A stretch of 46,518 nt of DNA from Methylocystaceae bacterium. Its GTDB lineage: Bacteria > Pseudomonadota > Alphaproteobacteria > Rhizobiales > Beijerinckiaceae. Position numbers and translations under genes: made by a program. The DNA lies in assembly GCA_009773555.1 (NCBI GenBank), contig WSXZ01000016.1:1-46518 (forward strand), given 5' to 3'. The stretch's first letter is position 1; each line of letters opens with the position of its first letter. Below are positions 43,400 to 46,518 of this stretch, piece after piece. The notes under the pieces are model-generated. The model had not been told where the DNA came from. It was given only the letters and a program-made list of their open reading frames with translations, and made no database searches.

Positions 43400-44626
43400 T
43401 CACAGTCCGGCGGCCTTGGTGAGATTGACCTTGAAACGATCGCGTTTGCGCTGATAGCGGCGGGTCATTTCGGGGCTGGCGTGGCCGAGGTGCTTTTGCA
43501 CATGCGCCTCCTCGATTTGCGCGGAGGAGGCGAGTCCGGCGCGCAGCGAATGGCCAGAAAAGGCGCATTTGCGTTCGCCCTCCGAAAGATCGCCGCGAAT
43601 GCCGGCGGCCAGCGCGGTTTTCTGCACCAGCCGGGCGACGTGCTTGTCGGAGAGGCGCTCGGGCGAGACGCCGCCGTTCTTGCGGGCGATCGGCCGAAAT
43701 AGCGGCCCGTGACTGATCCGGCCGAGCCGCATCCAGGTCTCCAGCAGCGCGACCGGACAGGTCTCGGGGCGGGAGCCGCGGCCGATTTCGACCTCGCGCC
43801 AGCCGGTCTTGCCGGAAATCTGCAGCACCGCGCCGCCGTCGTTGTTGCTGGCGTTGGATATATCCGCGCCAGTCCTTTTGCCGCCGCTCGAAACATCGGC
43901 GGAGTCTTTGCTGGCGCTGGATAGATCCGCGAAGTCCTTTCTGGCGCTCGAAACATCGGCGCCAGATGGAAAAATCTCGACCCAGCCGTTTCCGTCCTCG
44001 CTCTGATCGGGCCCGCAATCGAGGCCGACGATTTCCGACCGGCGCAGGCCGCCGGCGAAGCCGATCGCCAAAATGGCGCGGTCGCGGATCCCGCGCAGAT
44101 CCATATCGAGCGTCGCCAGCATAGCGATGAGTTCATCGGCGAAGATGGCTTCCTTTTGGACCGGCGGTCGGCCATGGGCGCGGCGAATGCCGGCGAGCAC
44201 CGTCGAAATATGCCGATCGCTTGCATCGAGCGGTTCGCCGCGCTGGCGGTAATGCCAGCAGATGCCGGCGAGCCGGCGCTCTATTGTAGCGACCGAAACC
44301 GGCGCGCGACCTCCGGCGGCGATGTTTCGCACGCCGGCAGAAACCTCGCCGATGTTTCGCGCGCCGGCAGAGACTGCGCCGCCCACACAAGCGGCGAGAT
44401 AGAGGCCGACGGTCTGCGGATCCGGGGGCAGGGGGTCGAGCCCCTGGCGGCGCAGCCAGGCGGCAAACTGCCGCCAGTCGGCGTCATAGGCGCGCCGGGT
44501 GTTATCCGAGCGGGCGTTACGGGCGTAATCGCGGGCCTTTTCGGAGAGCGCAGTGAGATGGGGGGAGGGGGACCGCTCTGTGAGGGGCGCGGGGTCACCT
44601 TCGAAGTCATCGTCGATGTCAGCCAT
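43400..44626 (-). CDS. tyrosine recombinase (plasmid integrase) with palindromic repeat insertions
   Basis: A 408-residue tyrosine recombinase. N-terminal SAM-like domain: 'SEKARDYARNARSDNTRRAYDADWRQFAAWLRRQG'; catalytic domain: Arg in 'AGGLRRSEIVGLD', His-x-x-Arg in 'FSGHSLRAGLASSAQ', 'LGHASPEMTRRYQRKRDRF' with the third His and the nucleophile Tyr. All catalytic residues are present, so it is probably active. Two low-complexity segments interrupt the fold: around residues 82-102 ('GAVSAGARNIGEVSAGVRNI', antisense copies of a 30-bp repeat) and residues about 224-267 (four sense copies: DVSSARKDFA, DLSSASKDSA, DVSSGGKRTGA, DISNASNNDGG). A perfect 11-7-11 inverted site lies about 125 bases upstream of its start and may be its recombination site. 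Confidence 0.9.
   Translation of the reverse strand: MADIDDDFEGDPAPLTERSPSPHLTALSEKARDYARNARSDNTRRAYDADWRQFAAWLRRQGLDPLPPDPQTVGLYLAACVGGAVSAGARNIGEVSAGVRNIAAGGRAPVSVATIERRLAGICWHYRQRGEPLDASDRHISTVLAGIRRAHGRPPVQKEAIFADELIAMLATLDMDLRGIRDRAILAIGFAGGLRRSEIVGLDCGPDQSEDGNGWVEIFPSGADVSSARKDFADLSSASKDSADVSSGGKRTGADISNASNNDGGAVLQISGKTGWREVEIGRGSRPETCPVALLETWMRLGRISHGPLFRPIARKNGGVSPERLSDKHVARLVQKTALAAGIRGDLSEGERKCAFSGHSLRAGLASSAQIEEAHVQKHLGHASPEMTRRYQRKRDRFKVNLTKAAGL
43832..43957 (-). repeat. four in-frame 30-33 bp palindromic repeats in the integrase gene
   Basis: On the minus strand, units start at 43957, 43927, 43897 and 43864 with GATGTTTCGA, GATCTATCCA, GATGTTTCGA and GATATATCCA; spacing 30, 30 and 33 bases. 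Each unit carries GCGCCAGMAA- or GCGGCGGCAA-type middles. The first one with its flank can form a hairpin with 7-bp arms (CTGGCGC / GCGCCAG). All are in frame and encode DVSSARKDFA-like decapeptides. Confidence 0.9.
44321..44380 (+). repeat. two palindromic repeat units in inverted orientation within the integrase gene
   Basis: GATGTTTCGC-ACGCCGGCAG-AAACCTCGCC (44321-44350) and GATGTTTCGC-GCGCCGGCAG-AGACTGCGCC (44351-44380), hyphenated per 10 bases. They are the same element as at 43832-43957 and 45113-45205 but opposite to the integrase coding strand, where they read as RNIxxVSAG-type peptide. Confidence 0.9.
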
Positions 44627-44751
44627 CTCGTCCCTCTTTTGGCTCCCGGTTTGGGGTCCCGCGCCGTTCGAGCGGAAAAATCCGACGCCTCGGCCGGCTG
44701 ACCGGGTCGATTTTCGGGCGCAATCGCCCGGAACACCGGGGCAATCGAATC

Positions 44752-44780
44752 ATGTCCGATAAGCGCACATTATCGGACAT
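44752..44780. promoter_or_regulatory. 11-7-11 perfect inverted repeat, candidate recombination core site
   Basis: ATGTCCGATAA (44752-44762) and TTATCGGACAT (44770-44780) are perfect inverted arms around GCGCACA. Eleven-base arms with a 6-8 base centre are the geometry of tyrosine-recombinase core sites. It lies between the divergent recombinase and DUF1403 genes; an operator is the alternative. Confidence 0.6.
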
Positions 44781-44878
44781 ATAGGAGAGAAGACAAGCGC
44801 GGCGGATTGGCGTGAAGTTTAAGCATAAAGCGCCGCCATCCTTGCCGCCGGATTGGTTCCGGGGCTACGATTCCGCCC

Positions 44879-46030
44879 ATGCTGGAACGTGATTCGCCCG
44901 ACCCGTTGAGCCTTGAACCCGTGGCGATGGGGCGGCCGCGGCGCGTCGTGCGAAGGCGTCCTCTAGACCCGTCGCTCCGCCCAAATCTTCCGGAAATCCA
45001 GCCGCTTCCGCGTTGGGCGAGGCTCGACGGCGGCGCCGGCGGCGACAGAAACGCGATGTTTGTCGCCGGCGCTGGGCTCGCCCATCTCGATCAGATTTTG
45101 CGCGCCGGCGCCGATGTTTCGACCGCCGGCTTAGGGACTGGCGCCGATGTTTCGAGCGCCGGCAGCGACTCCGTCGATGTTTCTAATGCCGGCAAAATCT
45201 TCGGCGTCGAACCGGTTTTTTCGGGCGCGCTGCGCCAGCGTCTGGCGCTCAAAGCCGCCGCAACGTGCGCGCGGCTCGCGCGGCTGCGCGAGGACGAAGC
45301 GGCGCTCCGCGACGCCGAGCATCTTTCCGGCGTCGGCGTCGACACCAGCCCGGCCGGACGCCTGCATCGGCTGTTTCGGCTGTTTGCGTCGCGGCCCATA
45401 AAATTTGATGCGGCGACATTGTCCGCCGCCGCCGAATGTGTCGGGGCGCCGAGCGCCTTCGACGCGCAGGGTATTGCCGAGGCGTTGCGCCAAACCGTCG
45501 CCAGCGCCAATGATCCGCTTGCCGCGGCGGCGGGCTTGAGCGCAGCCGCCGTGCATGATCTCGCGGCCGTCCCCGCGATCGACGCGGAGATCTTCGCGCT
45601 CTGGCTCGCCGACCTCGCCCTAGCGCAAAAACTCGGCTGGCAGGCGCCGGTTCCGCTGCTGGCCACAGTGATCGCTCACCCCGCATTGCGCCGCGCCGCA
45701 AACGGTCGTCGACCGCGTCCCAGCGATCGCGACTGGTCGAACGCGCTGGCGAGCGCCTACGCGCTTGCGGCGGGTGAGGCGATCGATGTCGCTGGCGCCT
45801 TGTCGCGCCAAACGCAAAAACTTCTCGACGCCGCGCCGAAATTGCGGGCCAAGAGCGCGGCGCGGGTCATCGAGATGCTGCTCGCCGATGATTGCATTGC
45901 GCCGGCGCGCGCGGCGAAAACGGCTAAGCTCTCCGACCGCGGCGCGCGGCGCCTGTTCGATCGGCTGACGGAACTTGGCGCCGTATGCGAACTGTCGGGG
46001 CGAGCGAGCTTCCGGCTCTATGGGCTCTGA
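44879..46030 (+). CDS. DUF1403 family plasmid protein with palindromic repeat insertions
   Basis: A 383-residue protein of the DUF1403 family, common on alphaproteobacterial plasmids next to integrase and ScpB-like genes; function unknown. Family landmarks: 'LPRWARLDGGAGGDRNAMFVAGAGLAHLDQILRAG', 'ALRQRLALKAAATCARLARLREDEAALRDAEHLSG', 'GRLHRLFRLFASRPI', and the C-terminal wHTH-like 'KSAARVIEMLLADDCIAPARAAKTAKLSDRGARRLFDRLTELGAVCELSGRASFRLYGL', in outline. Between 'QILRAG' and 'VEPVFSGALRQRL' relatives have only a few residues, but here three copies of a repeat peptide are inserted: DVSTAGLGTGA, DVSSAGSDSV and DVSNAGKIFG (residues about 79-109). The insertion sits in a linker, so the fold is probably kept. 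Confidence 0.85.
   Translation: MLERDSPDPLSLEPVAMGRPRRVVRRRPLDPSLRPNLPEIQPLPRWARLDGGAGGDRNAMFVAGAGLAHLDQILRAGADVSTAGLGTGADVSSAGSDSVDVSNAGKIFGVEPVFSGALRQRLALKAAATCARLARLREDEAALRDAEHLSGVGVDTSPAGRLHRLFRLFASRPIKFDAATLSAAAECVGAPSAFDAQGIAEALRQTVASANDPLAAAAGLSAAAVHDLAAVPAIDAEIFALWLADLALAQKLGWQAPVPLLATVIAHPALRRAANGRRPRPSDRDWSNALASAYALAAGEAIDVAGALSRQTQKLLDAAPKLRAKSAARVIEMLLADDCIAPARAAKTAKLSDRGARRLFDRLTELGAVCELSGRASFRLYGL
45113..45205 (+). repeat. three in-frame palindromic repeat units in the DUF1403 gene
   Basis: Units start at 45113 (33 bases), 45146 (30) and 45176 (30), each with GATGTTTCKA followed by GCCGGC. The middle unit with its left flank can pair CTGGCGC with GCGCCGG. They encode DVSTAGLGTGA, DVSSAGSDSV and DVSNAGKIFG and match the repeats in the integrase gene 1 kb away. 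Confidence 0.92.
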
Positions 46031-46156
46031 AACGTTTTCGAGCCGAAGTGGACGCCGGTTTGGCGCGGGAAACGCGTTTTAAAAAATGCTTTGTCGAGCA
46101 AAGTGCAGCCGGCATCGATGAAGCAAACGCGGCAAGAGGCAAGGTGAGGCGCAAAC

Positions 46157-46518
46157 ATGGGCCGCCCAAAAACACGCGAGCTGCACGAACCATTCGATCC
46201 CCTGCTTATGGAGTTGCCGGAAGCCGCGCGCTGGCGCGAGTGGATGGGACGCGTCGAATTTTCTCCGCGCGTACCCCAGTGTCGCGCGAGGCGCTCGCGA
46301 GGCTGGTTGACTCGACCTGCAATCTTGACGATCTGATCGCCGACATCCGTAGCGAGTTACGCGCGCGGCCCTATGAGCTCGTCTTTGTCGCCGGCGGCTA
46401 TCAACTGCGCACCAAGCCTCGCTTCGCGCCGGCAATCCGCGCGGCGGGCGGCGGCGATCTGCGCGACGCCGGCGCGCCCGAATTGACGCCGACCGAGATT
46501 TTGGCGGTGACGGCGATC
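46157..46518 (+). pseudogene. scpB: ScpB-like gene with a frameshift, 3' end outside window
   Basis: Start ATG 46157 (MGRPKTRELHEPFDPLLMELPEAARWREWMGRVE). The reading frame then shifts at about 46258, in a run of T, to give the rest of a segregation-and-condensation protein B-like wHTH protein: 'FSARTPVSREALARLVDSTCNLDDLIADIRSELRARPYELVFVAGGYQLRTKPRFAPAIRAAG' in outline, running off the right edge at 'LTPTEILAVTAI'. Plasmid ScpB-like genes usually follow DUF1403 genes. In the starting frame translation stops shortly after the shift, so the gene is broken unless a sequence error is involved. Confidence 0.82.

Follow-up and report, generated by a model that had tools for sequence, protein, structure and literature searches.

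A putative family of short palindromic elements residing mostly within protein-coding genes of Methylocystis

Here we describe a repeat found in a 46,518-nucleotide contig of a Methylocystaceae bacterium (WSXZ01000016.1; the whole stretch is hereafter called the window), in which nine palindromic units lie inside two neighbouring genes, one encoding a tyrosine recombinase and the other a DUF1403 protein. These units probably represent a family of short (30, 33 or 36 nt), non-autonomous palindromic elements that has spread through Methylocystis, mostly within protein-coding genes, and we put the probability of this reading at about 0.78. By analogy, the element would behave as the coding palindromes of Rickettsia and Wolbachia do, and membership of the Rickettsia palindromic elements (RPEs) is not claimed. 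A preliminary description of the window, made from its sequence alone, had proposed a mobile protein-coding palindrome comparable to RPEs, and this proposal is supported by the spread of the repeat over unrelated genes and by the presence of empty sites.

The distribution of the element was surveyed with a covariance model (R1; 27 positions, 11 pairs) built from 54 distinct copies, which were hand-picked from 75 that passed a filter for the core and at least a partial stem. Genes were assigned by our own reading of open frames, with Pfam applied to one or two examples per kind, and the figures count copies rather than independent events. At E<=0.005 the model gave 109 matches in 25 of 39 Methylocystis genomes, and at E<=0.1 it matched 33 of the 39, the weak matches being partly chance. 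Inside genes were placed 107 of the 109, distributed over nine kinds that range from plasmid genes to housekeeping genes: DUF1403 (40), the recombinase (21, made up of 13 at a sense site and 8 at an antisense site), HemF (18), UvrB (11), NrdJ (7), an ABC ATPase (5), Mu portal (2), Mu transposase (2) and LeuRS, the product of leuS (1). Two of the 107 belong to a DUF1403 copy whose frame seems broken downstream (L375; G, C and L numbers are our handles for genomes, contigs and loci). The single intergenic match (L092, on G209:C47) lies some 50 nt away from a gene for tRNA-Gly, and the other match outside these genes (G216:C18:18310) is likely due to chance. Carrier sites are found in unrelated genes, in both orientations and on plasmids, prophages and chromosomes; about a dozen of them are independent, with at least three positions in DUF1403. 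Five loci with inserts in hemF, nrdJ or DUF1403 that are labelled Alphaproteobacteria only (L134, L176, L180, L206 and L215) appear to correspond to genomes counted in Methylocystis. A match in HslU (L073) was judged by eye to be the ordinary sequence of that gene, with no insert. The Mu-like Methylocystis genes with the hairpin, for transposase and portal, were read at L237, L373, L379; L088, L100.

The sequences suggest movement through this spread to other genes, where filled sites can be set beside empty ones. For HemF, which was matched in 36 of the 39 genomes, 30 loci were read (one per genome) and proved to be empty in 15 cases, single-unit in nine and double in six; one single unit is shortened, as is the second unit of one double. 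The empty hemF sequence ...CACAGC GGCGCG CCCGGC is replaced at filled loci by ...CACAGC GGCGCG (30 nt) GGCGCG CC.... NrdJ, with 13 loci readable by pattern among 16 queried, gave nine empty, three single and one double, and the 11 UvrB loci comprised four empty, four single, two double and one triple, to which a later single copy (L377) is added. Copy number at one site varies from 0 to 2 in hemF and from 0 to 3 in uvrB. Five identical 36-nt units stand in one of nine ABC ATPase loci (L281 / L090, G207:C7:623614-623784), shortly after the GAGKST motif, where they add 60 residues, and the other eight loci have none. LeuRS carries an insert in one of eight loci and lacks it in seven, DUF1403 is empty in L067 and filled in L224, and the empty counterparts of both recombinase sites are supplied by paralogues in the window's own genome. 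In hemF, nrdJ and uvrB the insert is flanked on both sides by 6-bp GGCGCG or GGCGGC sequences, the targets being GGC runs, and the junction DNA is GGC-rich at hemF, nrdJ, uvrB, ABC and DUF1403. A tree of the HemF remainder places every filled row in one clade (100/94), which is unresolved inside and includes one empty row (G222), and the nearest row outside it (G017) is empty. Six changes are needed on this tree to account for the three copy-number states, several of them within the filled clade.

The unit is one hairpin with the loop CGA-TGTT-TCG and arms of seven to eight pairs, and thus has inverted repeats at its ends as in a miniature inverted-repeat transposable element (MITE). Across the 54 model sequences, paired cells reached 86.4% (78.4 in shuffles), cells changed on both sides numbered 57 (28.8 in shuffles) and the covariation score was 0.216 (0.102 in shuffles), values that in each case none of 500 shuffles attained. 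The strongest covariation consists of swaps between C-G and G-C at columns 2-26 and 5-23; covariation events are fewer than cells because a large part of the signal comes from two subtypes. Single copies fold well, with z-scores of -3.75, -4.17 and -5.15. None of the six frames is closed in the consensus units of 30 and 33 nt. The 36-nt unit has a closed sense frame, and its copies in hemF, uvrB and the ABC gene are antisense. The frames in use read ADVSSAG and GARNIGG, with PLETSAA, the third frame, in Mu transposase; Arg/Cys-rich frames were not seen at any site read as an insert. An arm swap alters the peptide from DVSSAG to DVSSGA while the hairpin persists. Because the arms co-vary, three frames are used and the arm swap changes the peptide, the conserved thing appears to be the DNA or RNA form and not the peptide. 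In HemF, the insert is predicted to lie in a low-confidence loop (residues 61-89), with a predicted local distance difference test score (pLDDT) below 50 in a model that is itself of modest quality (mean pLDDT 65.5, predicted template modelling score 0.72, 28 close sequences).

How might such an element spread? The hairpin form would be copied into GGC-rich sites, bordered left and right by GGCGGC or GGCGCG, through an enzyme or a repair process that acts in trans. A length divisible by three and the absence of stops from most frames would let the element be tolerated within genes, where it would supply a peptide rich in small residues to flexible loops. Units would afterwards multiply or shrink in place through slippage or unequal recombination. 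More tentatively, and as a possibility rather than an expectation, this could be a distinct class of micro-element resident in genes: a hairpin of 30-36 nt with GGC codons as its target, suited to translation in advance by a length divisible by three and mostly open frames, descended from an intergenic palindrome that a sister genus still has, and continuing, by some undescribed process, to extend essential enzymes of a free-living bacterium with peptide loops.

Several observations weigh against a mobile, gene-dwelling element. A single old event seems to account for the hemF insertion, and therefore much of the distribution would be inheritance. Counted by site (about 12 coding and one intergenic), the coding preference is within the expectation from gene density. 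Mu portal and Mu transposase have no empty site among the loci read, the phage search with Mu transposase returning distant relatives only, and translation of the inserts is predicted from open frames. A target-site duplication cannot be delimited cleanly, given targets that are runs of GGC and net inserts of varying length (30, 33 or 36 nt). Preselection of the copies, partly for their stem, biases the share of paired cells towards structure, and two of the five measures did not exceed shuffles: double-change pairs numbered 5 against 4.0 (131 of 500 shuffles as high) and further pair types 13 against 12.8 (297 of 500). A 46-nt stretch of the chromosomal type folds moderately (z -1.54, 15 of 200 shuffles as good). 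Finally, the search for a mobiliser, limited to PF01797 (Y1/RAYT-type, where RAYT stands for REP-associated tyrosine transposase and REP for repetitive extragenic palindrome), identified none, this family being absent from the matches in the window's own genome and in G135, G190, G203, G204, G205, G215 and G216. A PF01797 match was obtained in nine of 39 genomes, among them the carriers G017, G177, G201, G207, G217 and G219.

The repeat might instead have spread chiefly through gene conversion or through recombination among GGC-rich stretches and not by transposition, an explanation that we consider unlikely but worth keeping in view. It is favoured by the GGCGGC or GGCGCG sequences that border the insert at either end in hemF, nrdJ and uvrB, and by the similar units (e.g., ADISSAS) common to the neighbouring recombinase and DUF1403 genes. 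Against it, the first arrival in hemF, leuS or nrdJ would have required very short homology, and units are found in both orientations. It is more doubtful still that the repeat is a REP-like element mobilised by a RAYT or another Y1 transposase. Its size, within the 20-40 nt of published REPs, and its stem-loop fit that family, in which intragenic copies occur occasionally, and two sister-genus genomes have apparently intergenic copies. However, a regular GTAG or CGTC tag is lacking at the foot of the stem (the tetramer occurs within 9 nt in three of 29 copies from 17 chosen loci), the location is mostly genic, and PF01797 goes unmatched in the window's own genome and in the seven element-rich genomes named with it above, though some carriers match it.

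If instead a functional peptide module, such as a linker or tag, had been shuffled among proteins and kept for its amino-acid sequence, one would understand why ADVSSAGK recurs in DUF1403 and the recombinase and AARNIGG in HemF, NrdJ and the ABC ATPase. We regard this as very improbable, since three reading frames of one and the same DNA are in use (ADVSSAG, GARNIGG and PLETSAA) and arm swaps preserve the hairpin yet change the peptide. Least credible is minisatellite-like slippage, with each gene growing its own tandem repeat and the similarity arising from GC-rich codon bias (Gly/Ala): it fits tandem units that vary in number at one site and GGC-rich targets, but is insufficient by itself because the repeat is present in many other, unrelated genes, where the hairpin with its CGATGTTTCGA loop occurs as single copies in both orientations and empty hemF and nrdJ orthologues have no precursor repeat for single-unit inserts.

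Returning to the putative mobile element, its range appears to be narrow. Among 199 genomes of the family, 14 matched at E<=0.003 (covariance model with stricter filters): six of ten sampled Methylocystis, two members of a single sister genus (with E as low as 6e-7) and six genomes from other genera (E 0.001-0.003), in each of which one locus was read and found unlike the element. Across the order (397 genomes), the 25-mer of the chromosomal type was detected outside the genus only with three mismatches, in eight genomes, and family-wide sequence matches beyond Methylocystis and the sister genus likewise had three mismatches. Among the matches listed in a broader contig scan, loci outside Methylocystis mostly looked like conserved genes or chance. 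In these searches, convincing copies outside Methylocystis were found only in the two sister-genus genomes. There (L274-L280) the hairpin GCGCCGCCGATGTTTCGAGCGGCG, of 24-25 nt, is enclosed in a longer palindrome, CGCATCAGC...GCTGATGCG, with the layout CGCATCAGC..GAAAAGTGC..GGTTTTCGG..GCTGATGCG and an apparently intergenic position; six of the seven loci are outside well-supported frames and one is at the end of a possible frame. Since this hairpin sits in a larger, apparently intergenic palindrome, such a palindrome may be the source of the Methylocystis element.

Palindromes that code within genes have been described before. RPEs, at 105-146 (about 150) bp, lie inside open reading frames (ORFs) in nearly half of cases (Ogata et al., 2000, 2002, as described in PMC2229807 and PMC10969869). 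Compared by description only, they share with the present element a palindromic stem-loop that is dispersed and in frame inside unrelated conserved genes, whereas the latter is 30-36 nt long, mostly genic, in tandems of 1-5 and hosted by a free-living methanotroph. The preliminary description had named Rickettsia as the only well-known comparable case, which does not hold. Palindromic repeats that code inside genes are described in Wolbachia and Methanocaldococcus jannaschii, likewise palindromic and intragenic in other organisms, and PARCEL (palindromic amphipathic repeat coding sequence) forms tandem arrays (PMC2996958); it is a palindromic coding repeat in tandem as here, differing in sequence and microbes. 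REPs are portrayed as 20-40 nt stem-loops, some of them within ORFs, including excinuclease genes, that are mainly extragenic and bear a GTAG or CGTC tag, the GTAG types being tied to RAYTs (PMC3733652). The Methylocystis element has the same size range and some intra-ORF location in common with them, but differs in its 107 of 109 matches in genes and in having no regular tag. Enterobacterial repetitive intergenic consensus (ERIC) and Correia elements are further published precedent. RIME are intergenic mosaic palindromes of Rhizobiales, and the larger sister-genus palindrome has that look, while the Methylocystis copies read are in genes and without the outer palindrome. Because coding palindromes are published and no earlier report of such repeats in Methylocystis was found in the open-licence PMC literature, the element would be a new form of an already known kind.

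Protein-coding palindromes have been discussed as a source of new protein segments, but the best-known examples come from obligate intracellular bacteria, which are difficult to grow and to manipulate. In Methylocystis the unit is small, relatives that include the cultured M. rosea and M. silviterrae offer both empty sites and variants in copy number, and the carrier enzymes HemF, UvrB, NrdJ and LeuRS have established assays; therefore, both the movement of the element and its neutrality for the protein become testable.

In the window itself, judged from its sequence to be a repABC-plasmid-like contig of a Methylocystis genome, all nine copies of the preliminary description were located, each in frame and of 30 or 33 nt, with the same division into four sense and two antisense units in the recombinase and three sense units in DUF1403 (Table 1). 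Pfam confirmed the two gene identities (Phage_integrase and DUF1403), and the hairpin TCTGGCGC...GCGCCAGA folds as drawn there (-13.9 kcal/mol as DNA, z -3.75). Recombinase paralogues of the same genome confirm the segments as inserts: the one on C17 lacks the antisense and the one on C99 the sense insert. Of the two ways in which that description might have failed, an ancestral segment shared by all orthologues disagrees with unit numbers that differ at one place, zero included, and a repeat absent elsewhere with clear slippage ancestry disagrees with its presence in many other unrelated genes. Its argument from both orientations in one gene to mobility is weak when taken alone, and the stronger support comes from the other genes with empty sites.

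Table 1. Positions of the two genes and nine repeat units in the window
Feature	Position	Strand	Description	Further evidence
Tyrosine recombinase gene (408 aa)	43400..44626	-	six units at two sites	PF00589
Unit 1, sense in recombinase	43931..43960	-	30 nt, CGATGTTTCGA loop	model match G000:C6:43940-43966
Unit 2, sense in recombinase	43901..43930	-	30 nt, loop variant GGATCTATCC	
Unit 3, sense in recombinase	43868..43900	-	33 nt	covariance-model match
Unit 4, sense in recombinase	43838..43867	-	30 nt, loop variant GGATATATCC	
Unit 5, antisense to recombinase gene	44318..44347	+	30 nt	read within VSAGVRNIAAGG; paralogue on C17 without insert
Unit 6, antisense to recombinase gene	44348..44377	+	30 nt	read within VSAGARNIGE
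DUF1403 gene (383 aa)	44879..46030	+	three units	PF07183
Unit 7, sense in DUF1403	45110..45142	+	33 nt	covariance-model match
Unit 8, sense in DUF1403	45143..45172	+	30 nt	covariance-model match
Unit 9, sense in DUF1403	45173..45202	+	30 nt, diverged loop	

The core GATGTTTCGANCGCCGGC has seven matches in the window (<=3 mismatches) against 0.68 expected, a number reached in 0 of 100 shuffles. A second loop type, GGAT(A/C)TATCC, is found in two of the recombinase sense units and is likewise self-complementary; its exact matches across the genus, among those read, are all at the recombinase sense site. Counted by eye, the window's own genome holds about 22 units: nine in the window, three each on C17, C84 (diverged) and C115, two in hemF on C52, one on C99 and one in uvrB on C62. 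The covariance model lists 15 in this genome at E<=0.1. Weak matches on C5, C26, C60, C61, C88, C111, C112, C123 and C134 of this genome look like chance. Part of the window resembles repABC plasmids of M. rosea, the best record covering 24% of a 24.5-kb query at 85.2%. The recombinase and DUF1403 genes (window 43400-46518) are adjacent on Methylocystis and Methylosinus plasmids, accompanied by ScpB in some records and near repABC on the Methylocystis plasmids. Finally, GACTC is found inside a unit at 45167-45171 of the window and in several other 30-nt units, and fits GANTC, the CcrM methylation site.

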